Source: Bacteroidota bacterium
Lineage (GTDB): Bacteria > Bacteroidota > Bacteroidia > 2-12-FULL-35-15
Direction of reading: 5' to 3'
Assembly (NCBI GenBank): GCA_947449315.1
Contig: CANFRC010000002.1
Coordinates: 186,001 to 250,000, forward strand
Length of the DNA stretch: 64,000 bases
The notes under the pieces are model-generated. The model saw only the letters and a program-made list of their open reading frames with translations, did not search any database and was not told the DNA's origin. The position numbers and the translations under genes are program-made. This document shows, piece after piece, positions 5,244 to 56,824 of this stretch (position 1 is its first letter; the number at the start of each line of letters is the position of its first letter).

Positions 5244-5954
5244 TTATTTATGACAACATTTATGACAAACAGGTTTGGTGGTAGACATTTCAGGGCTTAC
5301 ATAAGGTATCCCTAAGTTCAATCCTCTTAAAATTAGAAGTAATGCCATAGCAACAATAAATATTGGAACAGCTTTATTTATCTTATTTCTGATATTCACA
5401 CTCATACTATTTCCTAGTAAGGATAAAGTAAGCATTGCAGGAAATGTTCCCACCCCAAAAGATGCCATAAATAAGCTTCCTTGAATGATTGAACCCGATG
5501 CAATTGCTCCTGCAACGCCTAGGTAAACTAAGCCACATGGTAGCAGGCCATTTAATGTTCCTATAAAAAATAGTGATGAATTACTTTTCTTTTTAAAAAG
5601 TAAACCGAGTTGTTGTTTCAATTTCCCAATGTACGAATAGATGAAAGCCGTAATCTTGTATCGGCTGTAGGTTTGGTTCGGTAACATTACCAATATCAAG
5701 ATGAGTATACCAAGCGTTATTGATACTCCTTGTTGATATCCGGCAATTACCAAAGATTGCCCCAAGATTCCAAATGCTCCTCCCAACATCGCATAGGTGA
5801 ACATTCTTCCTGAATTATAAATCAAGGATCCCGAAATTTTAGAAATCCAGGAGTGGTGATTCAATGGCAATGCTAATGCAATAGGACCACACATTCCTAC
5901 ACAATGGAAACTACCTAAAAACCCTAGTGCAAGAGCCGTCAGAACTAAATTCAT
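5244..5954 (-). CDS. SafE/DsbD-type membrane protein of the cbb3 cluster
   Basis: A 236-aa polytopic membrane protein with about six helices. It belongs to the sulfite exporter TauE/SafE or DsbD_2 group that usually follows ccoGH in Bacteroidota. The first helix carries the paired cysteines CVGMCGP, as in proteins that move reducing power or copper across the membrane. The C-terminus is cysteine- and histidine-rich (CHKCCHK), a possible metal-binding tail. It starts 4 bp after ccoH. A role in oxidase maturation, copper handling or thiol chemistry is likely from context, but the transported species is not known. Confidence 0.8.
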   Translation of the reverse strand: MNLVLTALALGFLGSFHCVGMCGPIALALPLNHHSWISKISGSLIYNSGRMFTYAMLGGAFGILGQSLVIAGYQQGVSITLGILILILVMLPNQTYSRYKITAFIYSYIGKLKQQLGLLFKKKSNSSLFFIGTLNGLLPCGLVYLGVAGAIASGSIIQGSLFMASFGVGTFPAMLTLSLLGNSMSVNIRNKINKAVPIFIVAMALLLILRGLNLGIPYVSPEMSTTKPVCHKCCHK

Positions 5955-5958
5955 TGTT

Positions 5959-6405
5959 TTAGGGTATTACAATTGTTTCTTCAATAAAATAGTTTTCTCC
6001 TTCCGCTACCCAGTTTATTTGCATTTTATACATTCCTTTGGAAAGGTTATTTCTATTTATGAATAATTGGTTGTTGCTATTTAATTTGATCTTCGACTTG
6101 TAATCTTTTGTGTTATCGGAAGGCCTGAAAAAAAGAATTTCTCCTGATATCTGATCATTCGTAAATTGTTTTGGAAAATTCATTTGAACCCCATTTCCAT
6201 CGATGTGGTGAGTTACATTTTCGGATAGCGCATTGGAGTTGTTCATTTGATTTATTTTATTCTGAAATACCAATTCTTTATCATAATAGTCATCACTTAC
6301 AAGATCAATTTTTTGATTCATGCACATAACAACCATGGTTCCAATCAATAGGACGAAGCCTACATATAGAATCGCAATTCTTGTTCCCCAGCCAATTTTT
6401 AACAT
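5959..6405 (-). CDS. ccoH: FixH/CcoH family cbb3 oxidase assembly protein
   Basis: This 148-aa protein has one N-terminal membrane helix (about residues 8-30) and a periplasmic beta-rich domain of the FixH family. It begins WGTRIAILYVGFVL and contains the DDYYDKELVFQ block that is a good marker of FixH in this phylum. FixH/CcoH interacts with the cbb3 oxidase and its assembly factors. It sits directly after ccoG with a one-base gap, the usual ccoG-ccoH order. Confidence 0.88.
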   Translation of the reverse strand: MLKIGWGTRIAILYVGFVLLIGTMVVMCMNQKIDLVSDDYYDKELVFQNKINQMNNSNALSENVTHHIDGNGVQMNFPKQFTNDQISGEILFFRPSDNTKDYKSKIKLNSNNQLFINRNNLSKGMYKMQINWVAEGENYFIEETIVIP

Positions 6406-6406
6406 G

Positions 6407-7813
6407 TTATTTTGTTTTAGTTAATGGTCCTAAAAAATTTGTGTTAACTGTTTCAATTTGCTTACCATTTGTATATATGCCAATAGTAAGTTTTGTTTTT
6501 CTACTTGTTAGTTGGTTGCGGTTGAGTATTACAAAAAACTCACTGCTAGCCATATTTTCCTTTTCAACATCAATAACATTGCTACCTACCATTTTTATTT
6601 GTCCGCTATCCGATTCAATCTTTAAAACAATAGGCAACTCGTTTCGTGTCTTGTTTACCAATTTAATATTGTAAAGATTACTCACACAATTGTTCGGTTG
6701 TTCTTGATATAGTAACCCGGGAGTTCTTAAAATACTTGTTTCTACATCTGATCGGCTAGCTAATAGCGTTACAAGAATTCCAATAAGTATGCATAATACA
6801 ATGGAGTATGCGATGATCCTGCCTGTGATCTTTAATTTTTGTTTGTTTGCAATTCCATTTTCTGAATCATATCGTATCAATCCTTTTTCCAGCCCAACAC
6901 TTTCCATCATGTGATCACAAACATCAATACAGGCAGAGCAATTCACACATTCTAATTGAGTTCCATTTCTGATATCGATTCCTGTTGGACAAACATTGAC
7001 ACATTGATGGCAGTCGATACAATCACCAGCAGTTCTCGCATCATTTTTTCGGATCTTTGCTCTTGGTTCGCCTTTGATATAATCATAAGCCACTAAGATT
7101 GAGTTTTTATCAAGCAAAACTCCTTGTAAGCGACCATACGGACAAACAACGATACAAACTTGTTCTCGGAACCATAAGTATACACCAAAGAAAATTGTTG
7201 TGAAGATCAATAATGACACCAAGGTTCCAATATTGTTGGAGATGTCGTATGCTATTTTTTTTAGTTCATCTATGCCAATAATGTATGATAAAAATGTATT
7301 TGCAATCAGGAATGAAACAAAAAAGAAGGCAATGATTTTTACTGTTTTTTTTCGAATTTTTTCCGCATTCCAAACCTGTTTGTTTAACACTTTTTGATGG
7401 CTTGCATCTCCTTCGATCCAATATTCTATCTTACGGAAAACCATTTCTAGGAAAATAGTTTGTGGGCAAGCCCATCCGCAAAATACTCTGCCAAACACTA
7501 CTGTAAAAAGAACAATGAATACTACAAAGGTTAGCATTCCAAGTACAAATAAAAACAAATCTTGTGGCCAAAAGATAACACCAAACAAGATGAATTTTCT
7601 TTCAAGAATATTTATTAAAAAAAGTGGTTCCCCATTCACTTTAATAAATGGTAATGAAAAAAAAGCAATCAGATAAACTATACTGAGTAAGGTTCTTTTA
7701 GTATATAGTTTCCCTTTCGGTTTTTGTGCATAGATCCACGCTCTTTTTCCATCCTTAATTGTAGCAATAGAATCACGAAAAGACTCATCCAACATTATAT
7801 CTTCGTTCACCAT
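6407..7813 (-). CDS. ccoG: Cytochrome c oxidase accessory protein CcoG (FixG/RdxA)
   Basis: A 468-aa membrane-bound iron-sulfur protein. Several helices occupy the N-terminal half, with the CcoG marker VFCGWACPQTIF in a loop. Two 4Fe-4S ferredoxin motifs follow (CIDCHQCVNVCP and CVNCSACIDVC, about residues 262-305), then another helix and a C-terminal periplasmic Ig-like domain. CcoG is the cupric reductase or electron carrier needed to load copper into the cbb3 CuB site. It lies 3 bp after ccoP and is co-transcribed. Confidence 0.95.
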   Translation of the reverse strand: MVNEDIMLDESFRDSIATIKDGKRAWIYAQKPKGKLYTKRTLLSIVYLIAFFSLPFIKVNGEPLFLINILERKFILFGVIFWPQDLFLFVLGMLTFVVFIVLFTVVFGRVFCGWACPQTIFLEMVFRKIEYWIEGDASHQKVLNKQVWNAEKIRKKTVKIIAFFFVSFLIANTFLSYIIGIDELKKIAYDISNNIGTLVSLLIFTTIFFGVYLWFREQVCIVVCPYGRLQGVLLDKNSILVAYDYIKGEPRAKIRKNDARTAGDCIDCHQCVNVCPTGIDIRNGTQLECVNCSACIDVCDHMMESVGLEKGLIRYDSENGIANKQKLKITGRIIAYSIVLCILIGILVTLLASRSDVETSILRTPGLLYQEQPNNCVSNLYNIKLVNKTRNELPIVLKIESDSGQIKMVGSNVIDVEKENMASSEFFVILNRNQLTSRKTKLTIGIYTNGKQIETVNTNFLGPLTKTK

Positions 7814-7816
7814 AAT

Positions 7817-8986
7817 TTATTTAGTCATCACCTTCACGCTATCTACTTTTTGTATTACCGTTGTACTATCTGATTTTATAGAGTCAGATTTAATAATTCC
7901 ACCCTCAACAAACAGCTCGCCTTGAGGTGCTTTTGGGTTCGCCGGGTTAGATCCACTTAATGTTTTGATGTAACTGGCAATTTCATTTATTTTTAGAGGA
8001 GATAATTCGGCTTGCCATGATTTCATTCCTTTGTCTTCGTAACCGTATTTTATGGTTGTAAAAATATCTTTAATTGTACCTCCGTGTATCCAGTAGTTGT
8101 CGGTCAGATTTGGTCCAATATTCCCTTCCGCCGATTTACCATGACAAACCGCACAATTTTCTTTAAACGAGTTTGCTGCTTCATCCAACTCATGTTTGTC
8201 TGTGATCATTTTAACGGTGTTTTCATTTACATTTTCTGCATTTGCCTTTTGATAGGCTTCTTTTGTTTCGTGAGCTAACTTCATCGTTTTGTTATACTCA
8301 GCAACTTGCAGATCACCTGTTTGTGTCACATGGAAATGAATAAGGTAGATGAACGCAAACACAATCGTAACATAAAAGCCATACTTCCACCATGGAGGAA
8401 GATCATTGTCTAATTCTTTAATTCCATCATAATCATGGTCCATTAAAATGCTTTCCTCGTCATCAATAGCAACTGCAGCAGTTATTATTTCAAAGAAAGT
8501 TGGTTCAACTTTTTCTACTATTTTCTGAGCTTTTTCAACCCTTACAAATATTTGTATACTGTTTAAAAGCACAGAAATAATAAGCACTTCAAGAGTAATA
8601 AGCGTTAGCATAACAAAAAAAACGTCAGGGCTTAAACCCATATATCCCGATGAAATAGTTGTTGAAGCCTGAGTTTGAGCGAATGTTGCTTGAGTCGAAG
8701 AAAGGAATAATAATAGTGCTGTTATGCTCAAGATCTTTCCATTGTTGTTTGATCTTTTTTCTTTTGTCGCTTCGGCAACATTTTTTAATACATTACCAAG
8801 TACAGCAATAATAATTATTAGCAGAATAATGATTCCTAATAATACATTGAATAATGTATTAGAAAAAATGGATAAACTATCCTGTTCTATTGCAGCAGAG
8901 GTTTGAGCAATTGCATTCGCTCCGCTTAATAAAGCTATACCTATAAGTATACACTTTGCATATAATTTCGATAAACTTTTTTTCAT
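7817..8986 (-). CDS. ccoP: cbb3 oxidase subunit CcoP, mono-heme cytochrome c
   Basis: With the ATG at 8986 the protein has 389 aa. It begins with a signal-like segment ending ANAIAQ, has four hydrophobic helices in the first half including the WWKYGFYVTIVFAFIYLIHF anchor, and ends with one cytochrome c domain (heme motif CAVCH, distal methionine near KGMKSW). The open frame extends upstream to 9070, but that would overlap ccoQ by 62 bp, so I take the internal start. Proteobacterial CcoP has two hemes; only one CxxCH is present here. Two of the early helices form an N-terminal extension. The gene feeds electrons to the CcoN-CcoO fusion encoded upstream. Confidence 0.9.
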   Translation of the reverse strand: MKKSLSKLYAKCILIGIALLSGANAIAQTSAAIEQDSLSIFSNTLFNVLLGIIILLIIIIAVLGNVLKNVAEATKEKRSNNNGKILSITALLLFLSSTQATFAQTQASTTISSGYMGLSPDVFFVMLTLITLEVLIISVLLNSIQIFVRVEKAQKIVEKVEPTFFEIITAAVAIDDEESILMDHDYDGIKELDNDLPPWWKYGFYVTIVFAFIYLIHFHVTQTGDLQVAEYNKTMKLAHETKEAYQKANAENVNENTVKMITDKHELDEAANSFKENCAVCHGKSAEGNIGPNLTDNYWIHGGTIKDIFTTIKYGYEDKGMKSWQAELSPLKINEIASYIKTLSGSNPANPKAPQGELFVEGGIIKSDSIKSDSTTVIQKVDSVKVMTK

Positions 8987-9008
8987 AGTATTTATAAATA
9001 GTGACTTT

Positions 9009-9221
9009 TTAAGAGTTTTGAATTTCAGCCAACGGCGTTCGGTTATTTTCTTTTTGATCAGTATCTTCAAAGGGTATGTTTTTCATTACAACGATATAAT
9101 CTTTTTTAACTCTGAATGCCCAAACAATAAGCAATAGAAAGAAAATAAAAAATATGAAGAGCGATATCAATGGAAATATTCCAACTCCTGCTATTGATTC
9201 TAGATAATTTATAAATTTCAT
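9009..9221 (-). CDS. ccoQ: CcoQ-like small cbb3 oxidase subunit
   Basis: A 70-aa protein with one membrane helix (about residues 15-37), a basic boundary FRVKKDY and a hydrophilic tail. The size, topology and position between ccoNO and ccoP match CcoQ/FixQ, which stabilises the oxidase complex. The sequence is too short for firm assignment by motif, so the call rests on gene order. Confidence 0.8.
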   Translation of the reverse strand: MKFINYLESIAGVGIFPLISLFIFFIFFLLLIVWAFRVKKDYIVVMKNIPFEDTDQKENNRTPLAEIQNS

Positions 9222-9302: not shown

Positions 9303-11432
9303 CTATTGTTTTTGCGTTGTTTGTTTATTCACTTTAATATCTTTTCCTAAACGTTGTAGGTAGGAAATAACTGCAATAATTTCTCTATCGCTTAAGGTTT
9401 CAATTCCGTCTACTTTTAAATTTGCTGCAATTGAATCAGCTTGAATCATTAGCTCTTTGTTAGCAATTTTATCGTAACCAGCAGGATATGGAACTCCTAA
9501 CGTCATCATTGCTCTGATCTTACTTGGCGTTGTTGTTGTATCCAAAATGTTGTCCAACATTGCTGCATATGACGGCATGATAGAACCGGGAGAGATATTT
9601 TGTGGATCTAACATATGGTTGTAATGCCATGAGTCAGATTTTTTTCCGCTTTCACGCGCTAAGTCTGGACCAGTTCTTTTTGAACCCCATTGGAATGGAT
9701 GGTCATACACAAATTCTCCGGCTTTCGAATATTCTCCATAACGTTCTGTTTCAAAGCGAAGTGGTCTAACCATTTGTGAATGGCAGGTATAGCAACCTTC
9801 TCGAATATAAATGTCTCTCCCTTGTAATTCTAATGGTGTATAAGGTTTTACACTTTCAATTGTTGGAATATTTGATTTAATGAGGAAGGTTGGAACCATT
9901 TCAATTACTCCCCCTATTAAAATAACAACTAAACTAATAACCATTAATTGAATTGGTCTTCTTTCAATCCAACGATGCCAGTGTTCTCCAGGGTGTCCGC
10001 CTTCTGTATTTGCTAATGCAGGAGCTTCTGCTTCTTCATTTGCAAGGAATGAACCTGCTTTCACTGTTTTAATAATATTGTAGGTCATGATAATAAAACC
10101 AGTCAGATACATGGTTCCTCCTATGGAACGCATCATATACATGGGTCTTAATTGTGTTACCGTTAATAAGAAGTTCGGGTATTTTAAGAATCCTTCTGGT
10201 GTGAATTCCTGCCACATTAAATATTGTGTGAAACCGGCCCAATACATTGGAATAGCATAAAATAAGATCCCTAGCGATCCTAACCAGAAATGCCAGTTTG
10301 CTAATTTGATTGAGTATAAATTTGTGCGGAACATTTTTGGGATTAGCCAATATAGAATACCGAAGGTTAAGAAGCCGTTCCATCCCAGAGCACCAACGTG
10401 GACGTGAGCAATAATCCAATCCGTAAAGTGAGCAATTGAATTGACTTTTTTCAGAGAAAGCATGGGTCCTTCAAATGTTGCCATACCATAAGCTGTAATT
10501 GCAACCACCATAAATTTTAATACAACACTTTCTCTTACTTTATCCCATGCACCTCTCAGTGTTAATAATCCATTGATCATTCCACCCCAAGATGGAGCGA
10601 TTAGCATGACAGAAAAAGCAACGCCTAACGATTGAGCCCAATCTGGTAAAGCGGTATATAATAAGTGGTGAGGGCCAGCCCAGATGTAAAGAAAGATCAA
10701 CGCCCAAAAGTGGATAATAGATAAACGGTAAGAATAGACAGGGCGTTCAGCAGCTTTAGGGATGAAATAGTACATTAATCCTAGGTAGGGAGTAGTAAGA
10801 AAAAAGGCAACAGCATTATGCCCATACCACCATTGTACCAAAGCATCCTGAACACCTGCATACCAGGAGTAACTTTTCAAAAATGAAACAGGTAGTTCGA
10901 AAGAGTTGACGATATGTAATACAGCCACTGTTACAAATGTTGCTATGTAAAACCAGATAGCTACATATAAGTGGCGTTCTCTTCGCTTTAAAATTGTTCC
11001 GAACATATTCCATCCAAACACAACCCATATCAGGGCGATGGCTATGTCAATCGGCCATTCAAGTTCCGCATATTCTTTTCCTGTGGTAATACCAAGAGGT
11101 AATGTTAATGCAGCTGCAACAATAATTAATTGCCATCCCCAGAAATGGATCTTGCTTAATTTGTCGCTGAACATCCTTGCTTTACAAAGGCGTTGTAAAG
11201 AATAATAAACGCCCATAAAAATACCATTACCGACAAAAGCAAAGATCACCGCATTGGTGTGTAATGGTCTTAATCTTCCGAATGTAGTTTGAGGTATAAG
11301 GTTCAAGGAAGGGTATATCAATTCCAATGCTACCCATAAACCAACTAGCATACCAACTAGCCCCCATAAAATAGTTGCGAAGGCAAATTGTTTCACAATT
11401 TTATTGTCGTAAGAAAACTTTTCTAATTCCAT
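9303..11432 (-). CDS. ccoNO: cbb3 oxidase subunits I and II fused (CcoN-CcoO)
   Basis: A 709-aa fusion of the catalytic and the mono-heme subunits of the high-affinity cbb3 terminal oxidase. The first 470 residues or so are CcoN with about 12 helices; family blocks include LHTNAVIFAFVGNG, VQWWYGHNAVAFFL (CuB/high-spin heme histidines) and IAHVHVGALGWNG. A linker and helix lead to the CcoO cytochrome c domain with CYTCHSQMVRPLR near residue 545. The fused form is common in Bacteroidota. The enzyme reduces oxygen to water at low oxygen pressure and pumps protons. Confidence 0.97.
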   Translation of the reverse strand: MELEKFSYDNKIVKQFAFATILWGLVGMLVGLWVALELIYPSLNLIPQTTFGRLRPLHTNAVIFAFVGNGIFMGVYYSLQRLCKARMFSDKLSKIHFWGWQLIIVAAALTLPLGITTGKEYAELEWPIDIAIALIWVVFGWNMFGTILKRRERHLYVAIWFYIATFVTVAVLHIVNSFELPVSFLKSYSWYAGVQDALVQWWYGHNAVAFFLTTPYLGLMYYFIPKAAERPVYSYRLSIIHFWALIFLYIWAGPHHLLYTALPDWAQSLGVAFSVMLIAPSWGGMINGLLTLRGAWDKVRESVVLKFMVVAITAYGMATFEGPMLSLKKVNSIAHFTDWIIAHVHVGALGWNGFLTFGILYWLIPKMFRTNLYSIKLANWHFWLGSLGILFYAIPMYWAGFTQYLMWQEFTPEGFLKYPNFLLTVTQLRPMYMMRSIGGTMYLTGFIIMTYNIIKTVKAGSFLANEEAEAPALANTEGGHPGEHWHRWIERRPIQLMVISLVVILIGGVIEMVPTFLIKSNIPTIESVKPYTPLELQGRDIYIREGCYTCHSQMVRPLRFETERYGEYSKAGEFVYDHPFQWGSKRTGPDLARESGKKSDSWHYNHMLDPQNISPGSIMPSYAAMLDNILDTTTTPSKIRAMMTLGVPYPAGYDKIANKELMIQADSIAANLKVDGIETLSDREIIAVISYLQRLGKDIKVNKQTTQKQ

Positions 11433-11470: not shown

Positions 11471-11656
11471 TTATAATCTATTTTTTTTATTTGAATCAAC
11501 TTTATTTTTTGCAACTAATTCATCATCAAATAACATTCTAACCGAAGGAGTATAATCATCATCATACTGGCCTGTTTTTACGCTCCAAAGAAAAGCGACT
11601 AAAAAGCCAATAGCTACTACGATGCTTGTTCCTATAAGTATGAATAATACACTCAT
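11471..11656 (-). CDS. ccoS: cbb3 oxidase assembly protein CcoS
   Basis: A 61-aa protein with one N-terminal membrane helix followed by W-S-x-K-T-GQYDD, the usual CcoS ending region. CcoS is needed for insertion of heme b and CuB into CcoN. It is the first gene of the oxidase operon, and its start lies 19 bp after the start point predicted from the paired-palindrome promoter at 11679-11743. Confidence 0.88.
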   Translation of the reverse strand: MSVLFILIGTSIVVAIGFLVAFLWSVKTGQYDDDYTPSVRMLFDDELVAKNKVDSNKKNRL

Positions 11657-11678: not shown

Positions 11679-11743
11679 CAAAATTAACTTTGGGTCCTCC
11701 ATCTGTTTATGATGCGCATCATTTTGAAATATGATTTAAATCA
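11679..11743 (-). promoter_or_regulatory. Promoter of the cbb3 operon with two Crp/Fnr-like sites
   Basis: Read on the minus strand: TGATTTAAATCA (11743-11732), 10 bp, TGATGCGCATCA (11721-11710), 23 bp, then TAATTTTG (11686-11679), a full match to the Bacteroidota -7 box TAnnTTTG. No TTTG is seen at -33, as expected for an activator-dependent promoter. Counting from a start near 11675, the palindromes are centred near -41 and -63. The same geometry recurs at 17022-17086, 18487-18552 and 49860-49924. Confidence 0.8.
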
Positions 11744-11880
11744 TTTTTTTTGTAACCCTTTGTTTTTCTGTTTTCAAGGCTTTTTTTATTTTAAAAACCT
11801 GTATTTTTTTGAAAAGGCTATTTATGCTGCGTAAATAATAGAATCGTTTCATTGTTTTTTCTACCTTAAAAATGGGAGTA

Positions 11881-11922
11881 TGATATTAATCATATAGGAA
11901 TTCCCTTTTTTATAATACTTTG
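11881..11922 (+). promoter_or_regulatory. Single Crp/Fnr-like site before the PAS kinase operon
   Basis: TGATATTAATCA at 11881-11892 is a perfect 12-bp palindrome. After 23 bp comes TACTTTG (11916-11922), an imperfect TAnnTTTG box at the same distance as in the paired-site promoters. A start near 11926 would give a leader of about 65 nt to the ATG at 11991. This suggests that the kinase/receiver-Crp operon is under the same regulator, possibly itself. No second palindrome is found 22 bp upstream. Confidence 0.55.
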
Positions 11923-11990: not shown

Positions 11991-13175
11991 ATGGATGGCA
12001 GTGAGGGATTAGATGCATTATTTAAACATGCTACTGAGGGAATATTGATTACAAATAATCAGGGCGAGATCGTAAAGATCAATCCAAGTGCAGAAAGCCT
12101 TTTTGGGTACGATTCAGGTGAATTAGTAGGGAAAGGCATTGAATTGTTGATTCCGTCACATTTGAAGGATAAACATGTTCATCATCGAGAATCCTATAAT
12201 AAAAGTCCTCGCCCTCGCTCAATGGGAAAAGGCTTTGATCTATTCGGTTTAAAGAAAAACGGTTCTGAAATTCCAGTAGAAATAAGTTTAAGTAATTATA
12301 CTTCAAAAAATGGAGTATATGTTATTGCTTTTATAATAGATATTACAGAACGTAAGATCGCGGAAGAGAAATTAAGGTCATATTCTACCGAACTTGAAAC
12401 GAAAGTAGAAGACAGAACATTGATGCTTCGCGAAGCTATTAATGAATTGGAAAAAACAAAGGAAGAGATCAACTCCGCTTTGGCAAAAGAAAAGGAGCTG
12501 AATGATTTAAAATCGCGATTTGTTTCTATGGCTTCTCATGAGTTCAGAACGCCTTTAAGTACAATCCTTTCTTCTGTTTCATTGATCTCTAAATATAATA
12601 CGTTAGAAACGGAAGAAAAAAGAGTGAAGCATATTAATAGAATAAAATCTTCTGTAGGTCATTTAACTGATCTTTTGAATGATTTTTTGTCGTTAGGTAA
12701 ACTGGAAGAAGGGATGATTCATAGCAATCCCGACCTCTTTGATATTGTGGATTTTTGTGACGAGATTATACAGGAAATGCAAGTGGTAGCTAAAGAAGGG
12801 CAAGTGGTATCCTATAATAATTTTGGAGAAAAAAATATCGTTAATCTGGATGTTAAGTTAGTAAGAAATATACTGATAAATTTATTGTCAAATGCGATTA
12901 AATTTTCGCCGGAAGACAAAGAGATACAATTACAAACTTTTGTTGGTGAAAAGGAAATTAAAATTACTGTGAAAGACTCCGGAATTGGAATAGCAAAAGA
13001 AGATCAATTGCATTTGTTCGAACGTTTTTTTCGTGGACAAAATGCTACCAACATACAAGGTACTGGCTTAGGATTAAACATCGTTACAAAATATGTTGAA
13101 TTGATGAATGGAACAATAAAATTTGAAACCGAATTAAATAAAGGGACTACGTTTATTATTAACCTTCCAATATAA
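11991..13175 (+). CDS. Soluble PAS-domain sensor histidine kinase
   Basis: A 394-aa kinase without membrane helices. A PAS domain (about residues 8-120) is followed by a coiled-coil linker (about 120-175), the HisKA block SMASHEFRTPLS with phospho-acceptor His near residue 183, and a HATPase domain (N box NLLSNAIKFS, G boxes DSGIGI and GTGLGLNI). I use the ATG at 11991; the frame also has an upstream TTG at 11958. The PAS domain has a histidine (near residue 62) in the place of the FixL heme ligand, but lacks the FixL distal arginine, so heme binding is uncertain. Stop and next start overlap (TAATG), so the receiver-Crp protein is its probable partner. The kinase half is paralogous to the protein at 56825, the PAS half to that at 55612. 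Confidence 0.92.
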   Translation: MDGSEGLDALFKHATEGILITNNQGEIVKINPSAESLFGYDSGELVGKGIELLIPSHLKDKHVHHRESYNKSPRPRSMGKGFDLFGLKKNGSEIPVEISLSNYTSKNGVYVIAFIIDITERKIAEEKLRSYSTELETKVEDRTLMLREAINELEKTKEEINSALAKEKELNDLKSRFVSMASHEFRTPLSTILSSVSLISKYNTLETEEKRVKHINRIKSSVGHLTDLLNDFLSLGKLEEGMIHSNPDLFDIVDFCDEIIQEMQVVAKEGQVVSYNNFGEKNIVNLDVKLVRNILINLLSNAIKFSPEDKEIQLQTFVGEKEIKITVKDSGIGIAKEDQLHLFERFFRGQNATNIQGTGLGLNIVTKYVELMNGTIKFETELNKGTTFIINLPI

Positions 13176-14233
13176 TGAAAACAATACTACTGATTGAGGA
13201 CAATGAAGAAATGCGTGAGAATACGACTGAGATTCTTGAGTTGGATAAGTACAATGTTCTGACCGCAAAAAATGGAAAATTAGGTGTGGAGTTGGCGCAA
13301 AACAATAAAATAGATCTCATAATTTGTGATGTGATGATGCCGGTTCTTGATGGCTATGGCGTCCTTCATTTGTTAAGTAAAAATCCCGAAACAGCAAGTA
13401 TTCCTTTTATTTTTCTTACAGCGAAAGCGGAACGAACTGATTTTAGAAAGGGAATGGAGATGGGTGCCGATGATTATATAACTAAACCTTTTGATGATAT
13501 TGAATTACTTAAAGCTGTTGCCAGCCGATTAAAGAAAAATGAAATATTGCGCTCGGAATTCTCAAAAAACATTGATGGTCTGAATAGTTTTTTTAGTGAA
13601 GTGAAGAACATTGAAGACCTTTCAAAGTTATCAGATGACAGAAAGGTTAAAACAATCAAAAAGAAGGAGCATATCTTTGCAGAAGGCAATTATCCGAACG
13701 GATTGTATTTTATTAATAAGGGCAAAGTAAAAACATTTAAGACCAACTCGGACGGAAAAGAATTTATTACTGGCTTATTTAAGGAGGGAGATTTTATAGG
13801 GTATACAGCTTTGCTTGAAGACGGAAAATATAACGAATCGGCGACAACGTTAGAAGATTCTGAGATCTGTTTAGTTCCAAAGGAAGATTTTTTTGAGCTT
13901 ATTTATAAAAATGCTGAAGTATCCAAGAAGTTTATAAAAATGCTTGCAGACAATTTGACTGAGAAAGAAAACGCATTATTGAAATTGGCTTACAATTCTG
14001 TTCGTAAAAGGATAGCTGAAGCGCTTATAGAATTAAAGAACAGATACCAAAAAGATGAAGCTAAAAAATTCAGCATGTCTGTTTTAAGAGAAGATCTTGC
14101 GAATATGGCAGGGACTACATCTGAATCAACCATTAGAACGTTAAGCGACTTCAAAGAAGAGAAGTTGATAGAGATCAACGGTGGTACGATTACCATTATC
14201 AATAGTGAGAAGCTTGAGAATATGAAAAATTAA
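13175..14233 (+). CDS. Response regulator with receiver domain fused to Crp/Fnr module
   Basis: A 352-aa protein. Residues 1-120 form a CheY-like receiver with phospho-acceptor Asp52 (IICDVMMP) and the LTAKAE and KPF blocks. Residues about 150-265 are a cyclic-nucleotide-binding-type beta barrel (IFAEGNYPNGLYFINKG). Residues about 270-350 are a Crp-type winged helix, with the predicted recognition helix TSESTIRTLSDF. That helix keeps the E-x3-R spacing by which Crp and FNR read TGA half-sites. The protein lacks the N-terminal cysteine cluster of FNR, so its input is probably phosphorylation by the kinase it overlaps. A close paralogue is at 58029. It is a strong candidate for the activator of the TGA-N6-TCA promoters. 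Confidence 0.92.
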   Translation: MKTILLIEDNEEMRENTTEILELDKYNVLTAKNGKLGVELAQNNKIDLIICDVMMPVLDGYGVLHLLSKNPETASIPFIFLTAKAERTDFRKGMEMGADDYITKPFDDIELLKAVASRLKKNEILRSEFSKNIDGLNSFFSEVKNIEDLSKLSDDRKVKTIKKKEHIFAEGNYPNGLYFINKGKVKTFKTNSDGKEFITGLFKEGDFIGYTALLEDGKYNESATTLEDSEICLVPKEDFFELIYKNAEVSKKFIKMLADNLTEKENALLKLAYNSVRKRIAEALIELKNRYQKDEAKKFSMSVLREDLANMAGTTSESTIRTLSDFKEEKLIEINGGTITIINSEKLENMKN

Positions 14234-14241
14234 AAAAAGGA

Positions 14242-16653
14242 TTACATTCCTTTTCTTTTTGCAGCGATTGTACTTGTTAATGTTGTGAATAAAACTATTG
14301 AAATGGAACTTATAGGCATTAAAATAGCCGCAATTACTGGTGACAATTTTCCATTGATCGCAAAACCTACTCCAACAATATTATAAAGCAGGGAAATTAT
14401 AAAGCTTCCTATAATAATTTTTTTTCCTGTTTTAGCAAAATCAATGAATTTTTTCAGCTTTATAAATTGTGTGCCATCTAAAATGGCATCACAAGCAGGT
14501 GAGAAGTTGTTGATGTCATCCGATACTGCAATACCAACATTGCTTTGTTTTAAAGCACCTGCATCATTTAATCCATCACCTATCATGGCTACCTTATTAT
14601 TCTTTGTTTGAAGATACCTTATGTATTCTAATTTGTTTGAGGGTGACTGATTGAATTTTAATTCTGAATGATCCGAGAAAATACGTTGGAGTTCATTTCT
14701 CTCTGAGTCATTGTCTCCGGATAAGAGAGCTAGCGTATTGTTCTTTTTTAATGCGACCACTAATTCTTTTAGCCCGGAACGATAATGGTTTTTTATAAGA
14801 AATCGCCCAATTACAATGTTATTGATCATTACATATACTTTGCTCGTTTTAGAATTCGTATCTACTTTTTTTTCATTAGATACAAATTCCTGCGATCCTA
14901 ATTTTATGAAATTGTTATTTATCAAAGCTTCTATTCCTTTACCAGGATATTCAGAAAATGAGGTGACAGGGGTTGATGTTGTCTGTGGTAAAAAAAGCTC
15001 TATTTTTTTGCTGAATGGATGCGACGATTCTGAAACCAAAGTGCGAATCAAAGTTTCTTCTTCATTCGTTAGTTCTTTCCCTTCATATAGGATACTTGAT
15101 TCATTATTGTGTGTGATTGTTCCTGTTTTATCAAAAACAATCGTGTCAATATTACCAAGTCTTTCTATCACATTTGCATTTTTTAGATAGAATTTATTTT
15201 TACCAAAGATTCGTAATATATTTCCGTTTGTGAATGTAGCCGATAGCAACAGAGCACATGGACAGGCAACAATTAGTACGGCTGTTAAAGCATTTAATGC
15301 ACGGTGAAAATCTGATTGCGCCCAGAACATAAAACCACCGGCTGCAAGCGCTAATAGAACAAAGGAGAAATATTTACTTACTGTATGAATAAAAGATTTT
15401 GTAGTATCCTCCTTTTGGCTGAATGCTTCATTGTTCCAAAGTTGCGTAAGATAGCTTTGCGAGATTTCTTTTATAACCTCCATTTCAATAGCGCTTCCAA
15501 TTTGTTTACCTCCCGCATAAATTATTTCCCCTATTACTTTTTCTTCTGGTAGCGATTCACCAGTAACAAAACTGTAATCAATATTTGCAATGCCTCTGAA
15601 TAAAATAGCATCAGTCGGTATCAATTCATTATTTCGGATGATGATTCTATCACCCACCTTTATATTTGAAACAGGAATTGCTGTTTCTTTTCCATCCTTT
15701 ATTAGAGTCACTGCTATTGGAAAATATGATTTGTAATCTCTCTCAAATGAAATTGTATCATAAGTGCGGTTTTGAAAGAATCTTCCTAATAGCATAAAAA
15801 AAACGATACCACTCATGGAATCCATATATCCTGAGCCAGTCCCGCTAATAATCTCGTAAATGCTTCTCGTAAATGTGATTAATATTGCCAATGCAATGGG
15901 CGCATCTATATTTAAAAATTTTTGTTTTAGCCCTTTCCATGCAGAAATGAAAAATTCATTAGCACTAAAAAAAAATACAGGAAGAGATAGCATTAAATTC
16001 AAATAGCTAAAAAAATGTTTTAGCCCTACTTCAGTAATTTTTCCAACAGCAAAATATTCCGGGAAACTCAACATCATAATATTCCCAAAGCAAAATCCTG
16101 CCACTCCAATTTTAAATAATTGTTTCCGGTTATATTTTGTTGGCTTTTTATCTTCTAAATCACTTAGATGAATATGTGGCCCGTAGCCTATAAATACAAG
16201 TAATTCAGCAACCTTTCGTAAGGTTGTTTCTTTTTCATTGTAGGAAATAGTCACTTGCTTTAAAGGGAAATTTACTTGTGATCTTTCAATAGCAGGGTTT
16301 ATTCGGTGTAGGTTTTCGAGCAACCATATGCATGAACTGCAATGCATTTGAGGTAAGTAAAACGTGATGTTCGTTTTTTTTCCATCAGTAAAAGAAATGA
16401 GTTTTTGTTTTACTTTTAAATCATCCAGATAGGAGTATTTTTCTGAAATAAATTTCCCCTTTACACTTATGCCTGGCGTTTTGGTAATGTCATAATATTT
16501 ACAGAGATCGTTCTCATTAAGAATTTCGTAAACTAATTTACAACCATCGCAACAAAATATTTTCTCATCGATGTGAATTGATTTTTTATTGCAATGTTCA
16601 CCGCAATGAAAACATGGTGTATCGGCAGTTTCTTTGTAAATGAATGATTTCAT
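14242..16653 (-). CDS. ccoI: Copper-translocating P-type ATPase of the CcoI/FixI type
   Basis: An 803-aa P1B ATPase. The N-terminus has a cysteine-rich metal-binding zone (CFHCGEHC, CCDGCK), followed by a heavy-metal-associated domain with MHCSSCIW. The membrane part contains the CPCALLLSA ion site (about residue 466), and the catalytic loop has DKTGT (about residue 508) and MIGDGLNDAGAL. In the CcoI/FixI group the pump delivers copper for assembly of cbb3 oxidase rather than for detoxification, which fits the neighbouring cco operon. It ends 8 bp from the convergent receiver-Crp gene and follows the 73-aa membrane protein gene. Confidence 0.93.
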   Translation of the reverse strand: MKSFIYKETADTPCFHCGEHCNKKSIHIDEKIFCCDGCKLVYEILNENDLCKYYDITKTPGISVKGKFISEKYSYLDDLKVKQKLISFTDGKKTNITFYLPQMHCSSCIWLLENLHRINPAIERSQVNFPLKQVTISYNEKETTLRKVAELLVFIGYGPHIHLSDLEDKKPTKYNRKQLFKIGVAGFCFGNIMMLSFPEYFAVGKITEVGLKHFFSYLNLMLSLPVFFFSANEFFISAWKGLKQKFLNIDAPIALAILITFTRSIYEIISGTGSGYMDSMSGIVFFMLLGRFFQNRTYDTISFERDYKSYFPIAVTLIKDGKETAIPVSNIKVGDRIIIRNNELIPTDAILFRGIANIDYSFVTGESLPEEKVIGEIIYAGGKQIGSAIEMEVIKEISQSYLTQLWNNEAFSQKEDTTKSFIHTVSKYFSFVLLALAAGGFMFWAQSDFHRALNALTAVLIVACPCALLLSATFTNGNILRIFGKNKFYLKNANVIERLGNIDTIVFDKTGTITHNNESSILYEGKELTNEEETLIRTLVSESSHPFSKKIELFLPQTTSTPVTSFSEYPGKGIEALINNNFIKLGSQEFVSNEKKVDTNSKTSKVYVMINNIVIGRFLIKNHYRSGLKELVVALKKNNTLALLSGDNDSERNELQRIFSDHSELKFNQSPSNKLEYIRYLQTKNNKVAMIGDGLNDAGALKQSNVGIAVSDDINNFSPACDAILDGTQFIKLKKFIDFAKTGKKIIIGSFIISLLYNIVGVGFAINGKLSPVIAAILMPISSISIVLFTTLTSTIAAKRKGM

Positions 16654-16764: not shown

Positions 16765-16986
16765 CTATTTGTTTGCATGGTGTCCTTTACCCTCAGTAAC
16801 AGCCATGATAAAAAATGTCAGAAATCCTATAATAGTCAGTAAAAAATAAAATGTGTATGTCATACGGCCAGAATCAACCATCGTATTTCCAACCTTAATT
16901 GGTAATGGGTACTCTAAAAATGCCCATCGGAATGGGAACAAAAATACTAACGTAATAATTGCAAGGGCGATAGCTTTCCTTTTCAT
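16765..16986 (-). CDS. Small two-helix membrane protein upstream of ccoI
   Basis: A 73-aa protein with two membrane helices (about residues 6-22 and 42-62) joined by a loop containing EYPLPIKVGNT and ending in a histidine-containing tail (GKGHHANK). I choose the ATG at 16986 rather than 17019 because the predicted transcription start near 17018 excludes the longer form. I do not recognise the family. It is the first gene after a promoter of the cbb3 type and precedes ccoI, so a role in oxidase or copper assembly is a reasonable guess. Confidence 0.65.
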   Translation of the reverse strand: MKRKAIALAIITLVFLFPFRWAFLEYPLPIKVGNTMVDSGRMTYTFYFLLTIIGFLTFFIMAVTEGKGHHANK

Positions 16987-17021: not shown

Positions 17022-17086
17022 CAAAAATAATTAGTCATGTTTTTATTGCATATGATTTACATCAGTATGAATAATGATTTAAATCA
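17022..17086 (-). promoter_or_regulatory. Promoter of the 73-aa protein-ccoI operon with two Crp/Fnr-like sites
   Basis: On the minus strand: TGATTTAAATCA (17086-17075), 10 bp, TGATGTAAATCA (17064-17053), 23 bp, TATTTTTG (17029-17022), a full TAnnTTTG match. The upstream palindrome is identical in sequence to the upstream one of the cbb3 promoter. The distal site overlaps the last codons of the gene at 17079-17468, so this is an internal promoter of the usp-to-ccoI run. Confidence 0.8.
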
Positions 17087-17468
17087 GGTTGCGGTCTTTT
17101 AACTTAAATGCGACCAATTCTTTTGCTTCATTATTTTGTTTTGCCAAGGTCCAGTTATCAGTTGAAGTAGTTTCAAGCCATACTTTTCCTGATTTTCGAA
17201 AGACTTGAACCGATAAGCCATAAACACTTTGGAATAAAGATTCCAATTCAGATACCTTTTGTTTTTCGGAAATAATGATATCTCCATTTTTGCTTATTGT
17301 ACGGCACTCTCCAATCTTTTTATTTTTATTCCGTAGTAATTTCTTGGCTGTTGCTTCACCCTCTTTATGAGACCTGCTAAAAAATTCAATTTTTAAAAAT
17401 GGGAATAGCTTGTTAAACTCATCTTGTAATTCGTGGATTATTCTGTTGTCATTAATATGTATTTCCAT
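17079..17468 (-). CDS. Conserved protein of unknown function, next to usp
   Basis: A 129-aa soluble protein. It opens MEIHINDNRIIHELQDEFN, has a basic middle (KKLLRNKNKK), a GECRTI block and ends with the pattern SVQVFRKSGKVWLETT and DNWTLAKQN. From memory, proteins like this accompany universal stress proteins in Bacteroidota, but I know no assigned function. It starts 10 bp after the usp stop and is likely co-transcribed. The strongly conserved C-terminal half suggests a binding surface rather than a membrane or signal segment. Confidence 0.75.
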   Translation of the reverse strand: MEIHINDNRIIHELQDEFNKLFPFLKIEFFSRSHKEGEATAKKLLRNKNKKIGECRTISKNGDIIISEKQKVSELESLFQSVYGLSVQVFRKSGKVWLETTSTDNWTLAKQNNEAKELVAFKLKDRNLI

Positions 17469-17478
17469 TTTTTAAAAA

Positions 17479-18300
17479 TTATTCGTGAATAGCTAATAGA
17501 GGAATGTGTGAATGAAATGCCATTTGTTTTGTATTGCTTTTGTGAAATAAGCTACCAATAAATGAATGTTTTCTAGGTAACATGATCAGAAGGTCGATTG
17601 AATGTTTATCAATAAATTCGTTAATGGCAAAAATGACATCGCTCTCTTCTGTAAAGTATAGCGTATGATCTAGGTCTTGAAGTATACGTTCTATATTAAG
17701 GCCTGAAAATGCTTCTTTATTGTTTGGTTTGGTGGAAGGATCAACAACGTTTATTACACTTAATTTTGCTTTAAAAAGTCCTACAATTGTTTTAAGCTGT
17801 TCAAATGTGCTGTTTTTCGTTTTTTCAAGATCACACGCAAAAGCAATATTCTGGATTGTTTTGAAATTTGAATTGTTAGGAATTGCAAGTGTTGGGCAAT
17901 CAATATTTTTCATCACTGCATTAGTATTGCTGCCGATTAATACCTGATTTAGTTTGCTTGTCCCAGTTATTCCCATCACAATCAGGTCTATGTTTTCTTC
18001 CTCTACAATGTCTTGTATTACATCCGTTACAAAACCTGGCCTAACAATGAACTTTATTTCATTCTCCTCTTTTACTTTTGCTCTTAATTTTAATTCGAAC
18101 GATTTCATTGATTCTATATTGTCTTTTTCCAATTCATCATAGGTAACAATTATTACCGGTGTCTCACTTGGAACAATAGGTATATGGAATGCATGAAAAA
18201 GGATTGCTTTAGCATTTAATTGTTTTGCTAGCTTTATAGCATAACATGCTGCATTCATTGACGTGTCTGAATAATCAGTAGGAATTAATATTTTTTTCAT
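17479..18300 (-). CDS. Universal stress protein, tandem UspA domains
   Basis: A 273-aa protein with two UspA folds in tandem. The first starts MKKILIPTDYSDTSMNAACYA and has the nucleotide-binding MGITGTSKLNQVLIGSNTNAVM loop near residues 130-152. The second (about 150-273) is more degenerate and ends with FHSHIPLLAIHE after a shortened loop. Such proteins bind ATP or AMP and help cells survive respiratory and redox stress. The gene is preceded by a paired-palindrome promoter about 190-250 bp upstream and is followed by the 129-aa unknown gene. Confidence 0.92.
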   Translation of the reverse strand: MKKILIPTDYSDTSMNAACYAIKLAKQLNAKAILFHAFHIPIVPSETPVIIVTYDELEKDNIESMKSFELKLRAKVKEENEIKFIVRPGFVTDVIQDIVEEENIDLIVMGITGTSKLNQVLIGSNTNAVMKNIDCPTLAIPNNSNFKTIQNIAFACDLEKTKNSTFEQLKTIVGLFKAKLSVINVVDPSTKPNNKEAFSGLNIERILQDLDHTLYFTEESDVIFAINEFIDKHSIDLLIMLPRKHSFIGSLFHKSNTKQMAFHSHIPLLAIHE

Positions 18301-18486: not shown

Positions 18487-18552
18487 TAAAATTATACCTA
18501 TCTTTTTTTCTTTCGTATGATTTAGGTCAATGATAATTTATGATTTAGGTCA
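18487..18552 (-). promoter_or_regulatory. Promoter of usp with two identical Crp/Fnr-like sites
   Basis: On the minus strand: TGACCTAAATCA (18552-18541), 11 bp, TGACCTAAATCA (18529-18518), 23 bp, TAATTTTA (18494-18487), which misses TAnnTTTG by one base. The two sites lie in an exact 14-bp direct repeat with a 23-bp period. In the plus direction no -7 box occurs at the matching distance, so the sites point to usp and not to HU. The leader to the usp ATG would be about 180 nt. The rest of the 515-bp gap holds AT-rich sequence and the HU promoter. Confidence 0.72.
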
Positions 18553-18744
18553 TTTTTTAATTTTTATTTACAGTCTGTACATCTTTATTTTCAATACAAG
18601 AGGTCTAGATTTTTACTGATTTATAGTCTTTGTGATATCTGTGTGACATTGAATTAATAAAACGTACTAATACCTATCAATTCAGGGGTAGTTATTAACA
18701 AAATGGTTACTTACAAACAATTCTATGATTTTTATGCTTTGAAA

Positions 18745-49859: not shown

Positions 49860-49924
49860 TGATTCAAATCACGCATGTTTTTGACTCAAGTCATTATTAA
49901 CCAGATGCCCCTGTAATAGCTTTG
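49860..49924 (+). promoter_or_regulatory. Promoter of the SprB-repeat protein with two Crp/Fnr-like sites
   Basis: TGATTCAAATCA (49860-49871), 10 bp, TGACTCAAGTCA (49882-49893), 23 bp, TAGCTTTG (49917-49924), a full TAnnTTTG match. All spacings equal those of the cbb3 promoter on the other strand. With a start near 49928 the sites are centred near -41 and -63. The leader to the ATG at 49962 is about 34 nt. The rest of the 251-bp gap has nothing else obvious. Confidence 0.8.
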
Positions 49925-49961: not shown

Positions 49962-52900
49962 ATGAAAAAGATTACAGTCATCGCGATGGCCTTCTTTCTG
50001 GGCCTTATGGGATTGGAAGCGCAAACGACTTCATGCGTAGACATGAACGCTTACGTCAACTCAAAAAATACAGGAGGTACGGGTTCATACACCCTTAATA
50101 ATGGTTATGAAGAAAAAGCTGCTCAAACGTATCACTATTCCGGACCAGGAAAAGTAAGTCAAGTGAAAGTGTTTGGAAATTACTCAGATTTTGGCGGTGT
50201 ACCACTTCGTATATCAGTTTACAATGTTGATGCTGCTGGAAGACCAACTTCCACTTTATCGTATGTAGATGATATTTTTTGGAGCGGAGCAAGTTCTATT
50301 ACTGTAAGTCTTCCAGGTGGAGGAACAGCAGTTAGTGCAAATTTCGCAATTGGAATTGCTATTAGAAATGTATGGCCTTGGGGTAATACCTTTCAGTTGC
50401 AATACACAGGAAATGGCGAAGGTTTAGGTGCTGATCTTGCATCATTAGCTGGTACTTCTACCGGTGGAAATTGGGCAAGTGCTATGACAAGTTTCAGTAA
50501 GGATGGAGATTTTTATCTTGTTCCAAAGATGACAAACTACATTACTTCTGATTTCACAGCAAGTACACAATGTGCTGCTACTTCAGCATTGATTTCTTTC
50601 ACTAACTCATCTGCAATGTCAAAAGATGGTATGTTCAATAAAATTGGATTGCCAGGATATGCAGGAGCTAATTATTTTTACACTTGGAATTTTGGTGATG
50701 CAACTCCGGTTTCTCACTTAACTAGTCCAACACACACATACGCCGCTGCAGGTTCTTATACCGTTTCATTAACTTCTACATTAGAAGGATGGGGTGGAAC
50801 ATGTACTATCGTAAAATCTATGGTTATTTCTGTTGGACTAAGTGTTAGTTCTTCTGCAATTACAAATGTTTCTTGTAATGGTGGAAATAATGGAAGTGTT
50901 ACTGCTGTTAGTAATGGTGGTACGTCTCCTTTTACTTATAGTTTAACTGGAACAACGTATCAAGCATCTGCTACTTTTGGTAGTTTGATTGCTGGTAATT
51001 ATACATTATATATTAAAGATGCAGTAGGTTGTACAAATACAACAACTTTTACGATCACTCAACCAATTGCTATTACATTTAATACAGCTTCATCCTCTGC
51101 AGCATCATGTGGAAATAGTGATGGATCTATTTTAGTTGCAGCTACTGGTGGAACAGGTGCTATCCAATATCAGTTAAATGCTGGAACTTTCCAAAGCAGC
51201 GGATCTTTTACAGGTCTTTCTTCTGGTTCTTATACCTTAACTGCAAAAGATGGTAACGGTTGTACTAAAGCGACTACTGTAATTGTTAATAATTTAGGAG
51301 CTCCGATCTTAACAGTTTCTAGCACAACAAACGTAAGTTGTCACGGAGGAAATGATGGTACTATTATTTTATCTGCAACAGGTGGAGTAGGAACTCACCT
51401 TTTCAGTATCAATGGTGGTGCTACTTTTCAAACGAGTGGTTCTTTCACAGGATTACCAGCAGGAACATATCCTGTATTAGTTAAAGATGCTTCAGGTTGT
51501 ACGCAAGGTGTAACTTTGATTATCTCTGAACCATCATTAGTTGTTTTCACTGCTTCAACAATTGCTACATCTTGTCATGGAGCAAGTGATGGACAGATCA
51601 ATGTGACTTCTGCTATTGGTGGAATAGGAACATTATCATACAGTGTAAATGGTACAAGCTACCAATCAAGTACAAACTTTTCAGGGTTACCTTCAGGAAC
51701 TTATACTGTTTATGTAAAAGATGCTGCTTCATGTGTGGCTACATCAACTGTAGTTATTAATCAACCGGTTGGTGTTGTGGCTACATTTGCAACAACTGCT
51801 GTTGGTTGTAATGGTTCTGACAACGGTTCAATAATCGTATCCGCAACTGGAGGAACTCTTCCTTACTCATATTCAATTGATGAAAATGATCCTCAACCAA
51901 CGGATGCATTTTATGATTTAACTGCTGGTACGTATACTATCACTATCACAGATGCTCACGGTTGTTCTTATTCATCAAACGTTACAATTACGCAACCGAG
52001 CGCTATTACTGCTACATCTACAATTACAAATTCAACTTGTACTTTTAGTAATGGTGGAATTTTAGTTGTTGCTGCTGGTGGTTCTGGATCAGGATACCAA
52101 TACAGTATCGATGGAGGAGTAACTTTCAATGCTACAGGTTCATTCTCATCTTTACCTGCAGGTACATATTATATTGTTGTTAAAGATGGTACTGGATGTC
52201 AAACTGTTATTTCTTCAATTGTTTTTGACTCAAACGGTCCAGTAATTTCATCCTCAAGTCATACCAACGTAGGTTGTCATGGCGGATCTGATGGAAGTAT
52301 TACAATTAATACTGTAACAGGTGGAACAGGTGCTTTATCTTATAGTGTGAATGCTCTATTATGGCAACCAACAACAACTTTTACAGGTCTTACTGCTGGT
52401 GTTTATACAGTATATGTAAAAGATATCAATGGTTGTATCGGTACAGTTACTGTTACAATAACTGAACCTGCTTCTTTTGTTATCACTAAAACAATTGTAA
52501 ACGCAACTTGTAATGCAAGTAACACAGGATCTGTATCAATTTTTGCTGCAGGTGGTGCTGGAACTTTAGCTTACAGTATCGATAACGGTGTTACATACCA
52601 ATCAAGTAATACATTTACAAACTTATATGCTGGTCCGTATAAAGTAATTGTACGTGATATCGCAGGATGTACAGGTTATATCTTATTTGATATTAATGAG
52701 CCTACTGCAATTACTTTCTTTACAGGTGTATTAAATGTAACTTGTCATGGAAATAATAATGGAGCTATAACTGTTTTTGCTGCTGGCGGAACAGGTACAC
52801 TTCAATACAGTTTAACTGGTGGAACCTACCAATCTTCCAATCTTTTCACAGGATTAGCTGGTGGTACTTACATGGTTTATGTTAACGATGCAAATGGTTG

Positions 52901-54097: not shown

Positions 54098-54787
54098 ATG
54101 AAAGAGGATGTTTTGTTTGAATACGAAAATTTTAACTCTATAGAAGGGAAGGTTAAACGTGCCATTCAAAATTTTCTTCCTATAGAAGAATTTGAATTGA
54201 TTTCTGTAAAAAGTAAAGAAGTTATTTTTCAAAAAGGAAGTTCACCTGAAGGATTATATCTGATCTCTTCAGGAAAGATTAAGATTAGTACCAATGGATG
54301 TGATAACAGAGAACATATTACTAGGATTGCTGTTCAAGCCGAATCTTTTGGTTATGAGAGTCTGTTAAATAAGTCCAAACACATTGTTACCGCTGTAGCA
54401 ATAACAGACGCAAAGGTTGCTATTGTTCCCAAAAAAATATTTTATTATTTGCTAGAAAGTAATTTAGAATTTTCCAAAACATTTGCCGAGATTTTGAGTT
54501 TGGATGGAGCATTTAAAGATCTTAAATTCCATGACATTCTCTATAAACCTATTAGAGGTAGGTTGGCTGATGCTTTACTTCTTTTGGAACGTAAATTCAT
54601 TCTAGATGGTAATGGTAAAATTGTCATCTCAAGAAGTGATCTTGCCAGTTATGTTGGAAGTGTTAGAGAAACAGTTTCAAGATTGATATCTGAATTTAAA
54701 GAAGATAAAATGATTGAAACCGAGGATGATTTCTTAAAAATAATAAACAGGGATAAACTCATATCAGTAAGTAACCTATACAGATAG
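54098..54787 (+). CDS. Crp/Fnr-family transcription regulator
   Basis: A 229-aa regulator. A cNMP-type barrel (about residues 35-150; VIFQKGSSPEGLYLISSGK) is followed by a C-terminal winged helix (about 155-229). The recognition helix VRETVSRLISEF reproduces the E-x2-S-R pattern of FNR, which reads TTGAT half-sites. It has just one cysteine, so it cannot bind an FNR-type 4Fe-4S cluster. It is paralogous to the Crp parts of the receiver fusions at 13175 and 58029. It converges with the DUF6629 gene (12-bp overlap). Confidence 0.9.
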   Translation: MKEDVLFEYENFNSIEGKVKRAIQNFLPIEEFELISVKSKEVIFQKGSSPEGLYLISSGKIKISTNGCDNREHITRIAVQAESFGYESLLNKSKHIVTAVAITDAKVAIVPKKIFYYLLESNLEFSKTFAEILSLDGAFKDLKFHDILYKPIRGRLADALLLLERKFILDGNGKIVISRSDLASYVGSVRETVSRLISEFKEDKMIETEDDFLKIINRDKLISVSNLYR

Positions 54788-56766: not shown

Positions 56767-56824
56767 GTAAGATTATAATTTATAGTGTTTAGATGGAATT
56801 TTTATTATTAAGTAATTAGGTTTT

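Follow-up and report, generated by a model that had tools for sequence, protein, structure and literature searches.

A PAS kinase and a receiver-Crp fusion protein as a candidate two-component regulatory system at cbb3 oxidase loci of Bacteroidia

Which regulator controls the cbb3 oxidase genes of a bacterium in whose genome no classical FNR is found? This question is raised by a locus of a Bacteroidota bacterium (GCA_947449315.1) that we analyzed within a window of 64,000 nt (CANFRC010000002.1, positions 186,001-250,000; coordinates below are those of the window). In this window, the gene for a PAS histidine kinase, here termed HK (11991-13175, + strand), is followed by that for a response regulator, here termed RC (13175-14233, + strand), in which a CheY-like receiver precedes a cNMP-binding fold and a Crp-type helix-turn-helix. 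As the initial annotation had stated, the pair lies between the cbb3 operon and ccoI. The operon, on the - strand, starts with ccoS (11471-11656), homologous small ORFs of which stand before ccoN in relatives, and proceeds through ccoNO (9303-11432), which encodes fused cbb3 subunits and has 70-90% identical homologues in relatives, and ccoP and ccoG (6407-9070), which co-occur in relatives, to ccoH (5959-6405) at its end; a gene for a DsbD/SulE-like membrane protein (5244-5954) comes after ccoH. On the other side of the pair, also on the - strand, are the gene for a ccoI-type copper P-type ATPase (14242-16653), identified by Pfam and NCBIfam, a small membrane ORF before it (16765-16986) that is kept in the congeneric locus L213, a gene for a conserved 129-aa protein of unknown family (orf129; 17079-17468), and usp (17479-18300). 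Both orf129 and usp are recurrent targets of the operator described below, and orf129, for which no Pfam or NCBIfam match was obtained, has receiver-Crp genes nearby in 53 of 80 loci.

HK (394 aa) is composed of PAS_9 (residues 16-120), HisKA (174-241), and HATPase_c (287-393) domains as defined by Pfam. Because no 19-residue window exceeds a KD value of 0.97, HK has no recognizable membrane segment and is considered soluble; together with the single base shared by the two ORFs (TAATG), this upholds the earlier description of a soluble PAS kinase overlapping a regulator gene. The phospho-acceptor His183 in the motif SHEFRTPL and the ATPase motifs are invariant among relatives, and HK thus has both the H-box His and the ATPase domain of HisKA/HATPase_c sensor kinases. 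Among PDB entries, the PAS domain matched best to 10jx, for which we know of no ligand, and then to the heme PAS domains of DosP (3.9e-13) and FixL (2e-11). In HMMER alignments, H62 coincides with the proximal heme-ligating His of DosP and FixL; the equivalent residue is His in 76 of 77 HK relatives, and in the AlphaFold model of HK (pLDDT 85) H62 is inside helix 56-71 (F-alpha). HK, therefore, has a His at the proximal heme-ligand position on F-alpha as in FixL, and heme binding is predicted. In FixL, R220 contacts oxygen and is involved in O2 discrimination, and Arg97 is its counterpart in DosP. This distal Arg is absent from HK, in which the position is occupied by F82, and relatives have M, L, I, R, or F. 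Because the PAS domain matches heme PAS domains, and because His62 is conserved and located in the F-alpha helix, oxygen is the likeliest signal of HK, with redox state or NO also possible. Of note, the FixL/DosP-type PAS fold alone is no proof of heme, because approximately 40% of the corresponding PAS cluster is without the His (PMC10468136).

RC (352 aa) consists of Response_reg (4-115), cNMP_binding (159-244), and HTH_Crp_2 (278-349) domains, all scoring far above the Pfam cut-offs, confirming that a CheY-like receiver and a Crp/Fnr DNA-binding module are joined in one chain. Fold searches with the models of HK and RC returned matches to generic kinases and Crp, and the best sequence match of the C-terminal 200 residues of RC is PgCRP (PDB 2gau, 1.1e-25). 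Asp52, which the initial annotation had singled out as the phospho-acceptor, is invariant in 82 of 82 relatives, and the conservation of E8/D9, T82, and K104 completes the PF00072 set of acidic pair, Asp, Thr/Ser, and Lys. In the helix-turn-helix, E317, I320, and R321 are invariant in the 82 sequences such that the recognition helix has E-x-x-I-R throughout instead of the FNR-type E-x-x-S-R. Because C51 and C232 are the only cysteines and there is no CxxC, RC is devoid of the FNR [4Fe-4S] cysteine cluster, as had been pointed out. C232 is at the position of the fourth FNR-type cysteine, which is Cys in 28 of 82 RC proteins, while the other three positions are lost. Equivalents of the cAMP-binding residues Glu72 and Arg82 are absent (Y210 in 77 of 82 proteins, and E, D, or S at 221), and with these pocket residues missing cAMP was ruled out as the effector. 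Because RC has neither a cAMP pocket nor Fe-S ligands, its sequence suggests that the input most likely comes through the receiver. The pair encodes neither an intermediate receiver nor an HPt domain by Pfam; therefore, a true phosphorelay can be dismissed for HK-RC, and the term phosphorelay used earlier is wrong for what is a simple two-component pair.

Is this pair peculiar to one genome? A scan of public genomes returned at least 565 relatives. The best 80 of these are nearly full-length with 58-71% identity, a kinase is encoded directly upstream of RC in approximately 75 of them, and cco genes, arranged in several ways, are no more than 10 kb away in more than a third of the 80 loci. The receiver-Crp fusion is, thus, not specific to this genome but represents a widespread Bacteroidia family. 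In the closest relatives (L213-L216; 76-84% identity), HK-RC is likewise located next to ccoS and/or ccoI. Three loci (L039, L024, and L033) come from public MAGs the record titles of which read Bifidobacterium breve, Chryseobacterium gleum, and Chitinophaga pinensis; the bin behind at least the first of these titles seems to be mislabelled. When 296 genomes of the phylum were sampled independently, RC was present in 43, all from one class (Bacteroidia), and 38 of these 43 have ccoNO. A search for the receiver-Crp order near cco genes in other Bacteroidota had been suggested at the outset, and in this sample RC is located within 12 kb of ccoNO in 15 genomes from seven families as compared with 0.2 expected by chance, ruling out chance co-location. 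Kinship is ignored in this and all other statistics on the genome sample. RC is also present in five genomes of the class without detectable cco genes and co-exists with FNR, away from cco, in 13 genomes, arguing that the RC family has other uses as well.

To define an operator, we searched for any dyad upstream of the HK gene with no motif preset. The top dyad family had ATGAC, ATGAT, or CTGA with the matching TCA six bases on, and the pattern MTGAYN4RTCAK has 210 sites in 1.33 Mb of RC loci as compared with 14 for the reversed pattern; 190 of the 210 sites are intergenic. In relatives' loci, the box precedes HK in 45 of 70 cases, mostly ~95 bp upstream, and is found before ccoNO (17/25), ccoI (14/23), orf129 (32/57), and usp (12/45) in RC loci, but in none of 68 cases before the internal cco operon genes ccoG, ccoP, ccoH, and sulfE. 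Further recurrent targets, with names read from the sequences, are genes for a DoxX-like protein, ccoS, a TerB-like protein, a 131-aa protein, and hemN (twice). The window contains seven boxes (at 11709, 11731, 11880, 17052, 17074, 18540, and 55530) as compared with 1.4 expected, a number reached in 0 of 100 shuffles. Specifically, ATGATGCGCATCAT (11709-11722) and ATGATTTAAATCAT (11731-11744) are the first and second box of a tandem before the ccoS-ccoNO-ccoP-ccoG-ccoH operon, and L213 has a pair at the corresponding place; ATGATATTAATCAT (11880-11893) is located ~100 bp before the HK start, where it would allow autoregulation; a second tandem (17052-17065 and 17074-17087, 22 bp apart) is at the same place in L213; a pair with 23 bp spacing (18517, with one mismatch, and 18540; 18517-18553) precedes usp and is a tandem in L213; and a box with one mismatch at 55508 and a perfect one at 55530, 22 bp apart (55508-55543), precede a paralogous system. 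Altogether, boxes in L213 are at the same genes as in the window. Window shuffles and the reversed-pattern counts in relatives' loci rule out chance palindromes, and those that had been reported before the cbb3 operon and ccoI are real; those assigned to ccoI are present, although they stand before the small ORF that precedes ccoI rather than directly before ccoI itself. Like FNR, RC combines a Crp fold with TGA-N6-TCA operators before cbb3 genes, here ccoS/ccoN and ccoI, to which it is predicted to bind. In this genome as a whole, exact matches to the single box numbered 30 as compared with 14 for the reversed pattern, and the list is mixed with many matches in coding regions; a scan for double boxes was far cleaner.

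The spacing of the boxes is itself a conserved feature. For 134 of the 210 sites in RC loci, a second box with at most two mismatches is exactly 22 bp away, while no other offset accounts for more than eight; in the window, the pairs 11709/11731, 17052/17074, and 55508/55530 have this spacing. Because 22 bp correspond to two turns of DNA, a pair of dimers would be neighbors on the same face of the helix, and they possibly bind in a cooperative manner. To our knowledge, cooperative side-by-side binding of two dimers at 22 bp has not been described for the Crp/Fnr family. A strict double box (TGAYN4RTCA-N10-TGAYN4RTCA) is present in 38 of the 296 genomes, and the reversed control in 0. Of the 43 genomes with RC, 28 have the double box vs 10 of the 253 others (p ~3e-20, ignoring kinship); within the class, the numbers are 28 of 43 with RC vs 4 of 30 without (p ~1e-5, likewise ignoring kinship). 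Eight genomes have it 130-350 bp upstream of ccoNO. Some genomes with an FNR-type protein and without RC (G273 and G271) also carry double boxes, suggesting that the tandem does not strictly need the receiver. The genome studied here has four double boxes, i.e. before ccoS, the ccoI unit, a gene for a large secreted protein, and a gene for a 131-aa protein. The third, TGATTCAAATCA-N10-TGACTCAAGTCA (49860-49893), is upstream of a 1226-aa secreted repeat protein (49962-53642) that resembles type IX secretion cargo and is possibly a surface protein under low-oxygen control. The 131-aa protein (L121:1591-1986; contig C9, ~7,000) has no Pfam match; because homologues are encoded behind boxes in six other loci (L016, L017, L030, L037, L038, and L049), it is likely a further member of the regulon.

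Using E. coli FNR as a query over the same 296 genomes, we found an FNR-like Crp-family gene within 12 kb, and usually at ~2.9 kb, of ccoNO in 36 genomes; RC is near cco in 15 genomes, and both are near cco in none. By a profile search, RC, a four-cysteine FNR type, or an f4 type was detected in every one of the 63 cco-bearing genomes of the class. The four-cysteine FNR is present anywhere in the genome in 0 of 15 genomes with RC near cco vs 33 of 48 others (p 1.3e-6, ignoring kinship). Families f3, f5, and f9 each contain both genomes with RC near cco and genomes with FNR near cco, and therefore more than one exchange is likely. Most FNR-like proteins near cco have invariant C11, C14, C60, and C113 (alignment A3), while the cluster cysteines of E. 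coli FNR are C20, C23, C29, and C122. The four-cysteine proteins beside cco (L138-L153 and L158-L164), thus, differ from E. coli FNR in the third ligand position, and their sequences suggest a differently wired Fe-S cluster; f4-family Crp proteins beside cco (L154-L157) have lost all four cysteines and kept the same recognition helix. The helix TE[ST]xIR is common to RC and the FNR-type proteins near cco, and the four-cysteine type mostly has IR as RC does. We observed that TESLIR goes with CTGA and TETVIR with ATGA, a weak covariation of the helix with the base before TGA that is tied to kinship, and we did not use it. The same box is also found in FNR-type loci, i.e. before ccoNO in 15 of 20 and ccoI in 13 of 20. 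Finally, RC proteins form a monophyletic clade inside the Crp family (support 99) that groups, less firmly (support 88), with a set including the cco-adjacent FNR-type protein of G273, the locus of which carries double boxes itself. Mutual exclusivity, the shared helix and operator, the RC clade, and the residual fourth cysteine support a scenario in which the sensing part was exchanged while the operator was conserved, and the proposal that RC replaces FNR, thus, has strong comparative support. We tentatively raise the further possibility that the oxygen input to cbb3 was exchanged several times within one class while the operator stayed, with a Fe-S FNR giving way to a heme-PAS kinase and a receiver-bearing FNR-like protein, and that the 22-bp double box results from two dimers binding cooperatively, with phosphorylated receivers possibly forming a bridge between them.

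In this genome (2.61 Mb, 99.8% complete), only three HTH_Crp_2 genes were found, all in the window. A profile of the four-cysteine FNR that included the N-terminus had no match in the genome, and a classical FNR elsewhere can be set aside. Besides RC, the three comprise a stand-alone Crp-family regulator without the FNR cysteine cluster (54098-54787, + strand), the recognition helix of which reads RETVSR, and a second receiver-Crp protein, RC2 (58029-59090), which is 66% identical to RC and also lacks the FNR cluster. RC2 belongs to the paralogous system (55612-59090, + strand), which has a PAS kinase (55612-56766) and, unlike the HK-RC pair, an extra receiver-kinase (56825-58054); this three-gene order recurs in L021, L042, L059, and L079. 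The initial annotation had overlooked this second system, which together with the stand-alone Crp spans 54098-59090. These other two Crp-family proteins could bind the boxes as well.

Taken together, we consider it probable, at roughly 70%, that HK and RC form a cytoplasmic two-component system with the role in Bacteroidia that FNR or FixL-FixJ-FixK has in other bacteria. HK would most likely bind heme via His62 of the PAS domain, and falling oxygen would change its autophosphorylation at His183. As the active sites of both proteins are intact and the two genes are conserved as a pair, the phosphate would then be expected to pass to Asp52 of RC. In place of the Fe-S-binding N-terminus of FNR, the phosphorylated receiver would let the Crp part bind to MTGAYN4RTCAK, typically as two adjacent dimers on boxes spaced by 22 bp; here, the operator comes from genome comparison and we infer that RC is its ligand. 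Bound RC would control the cbb3 operon, ccoI, usp, and its own gene pair, presumably by activating cco in the phosphorylated form. In this lineage, HK-RC would have replaced, at the cco locus, an FNR-type regulator that uses the same operator in other Bacteroidia. The designation microaerobic master switch, given in the initial annotation, overstates the case, given the small number of operators and a paralogous system that shares them.

In one alternative, HK-RC would still control cco and the same set of genes, but the PAS domain would respond to redox state, NO, CO, or a non-heme ligand rather than directly to O2. The lack of conservation at the FixL Arg220/DosP Arg97 position, the match to 10jx, an entry with no ligand known to us, and the ~40% of the FixL/DosP PAS cluster without the His (PMC10468136) fit this explanation; nevertheless, we regard it as unlikely because 76 of 77 kinases retain the His, and because cbb3, ccoI, usp, and hemN together make up a regulon typical of low-oxygen control by FNR, FixK, and NmpR. 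With respect to the sign of regulation, RC might also be a repressor or brake: phosphorylated RC would shut off cco in air, and dephosphorylation at low oxygen would relieve this. Boxes centred ~60-100 bp before the start codon fit activation, however, and in classical systems FNR-type regulators activate cco genes from comparable operators, making a repressor decidedly improbable.

That all three Crp-family genes of the genome are in the window, and that a tandem box also precedes the RC2 system, leaves room for the stand-alone Crp or RC2 as the main occupant of the boxes, with the link of RC to cco being historical and RC acting on few or other sites. This we judge to be very unlikely, since the box precedes the HK-RC pair itself in 45 of 70 loci, double boxes track RC across genomes (28/43 vs 10/253), and RC shares TE[ST]xIR with the FNR-type proteins while the stand-alone Crp has RETVSR. 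Lastly, single boxes are short and about half of their exact genome-wide matches are background (30 vs 14), so that the neighborhood of RC and cco and the palindromes might be thought coincidental; the linkage (15 vs 0.2 expected), the site counts (210 vs 14), and the 22-bp pairing refute this, and we give coincidence practically no weight.

Full-text searches of the open-access literature returned no account of the HK-RC system. Low-oxygen sensing in Bacteroidia, a major class that lives in water, soil, guts, and wastewater, is largely undescribed, and HK-RC would, if our interpretation is correct, explain how their high-affinity oxidase is controlled. It would also provide a clear case of sensor replacement over a conserved operator, in which one DNA-binding module is run by a Fe-S cluster or by phosphorylation depending on lineage. 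The operator MTGAYN4RTCAK can be scanned in any Bacteroidia genome.

Among known systems, CRP and PgCRP (2gau), along with other Crp-family structures, share the fold of the C-terminal 200 residues of RC, but RC lacks the cAMP-binding Glu72/Arg82 equivalents and has an N-terminal receiver. In Myxococcus xanthus, NmpRSTU comprises a globin-coupled kinase, a true multi-step relay, and an NtrC-type regulator (PMC11841059); it resembles HK-RC in using a heme-based kinase, as predicted for HK, and in having a two-component regulon with a USP, a P-type ATPase, cbb3, and hemN, whereas its proteins and operator are unrelated. The rhizobial FixL-FixJ-FixK cascade, and also hFixL-FxkR-FixK, is similar in that a PAS kinase with the heme-type F-alpha His provides two-component input to a Crp/Fnr-type output on cbb3 genes at TGA-N6-TCA boxes. 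In that cascade, FixJ (a receiver with a LuxR-type helix-turn-helix) and FixK (a Crp protein) are separate steps. By contrast, RC has no LuxR/NarL-type helix-turn-helix driving a separate fixK; the receiver is fused to cNMP_binding and HTH_Crp_2 in one chain, there is no FixJ, the kinase is without the distal Arg, and the boxes are in 22-bp tandems. With FNR, including the four-cysteine type of Bacteroidota, RC shares the Crp fold, the operator, and the cco neighborhood, and its recognition helix is that of the Bacteroidota type; it differs in that a receiver replaces the CxxC-containing N-terminus, and with it a predicted phosphorylation input takes the place of the Fe-S cluster.
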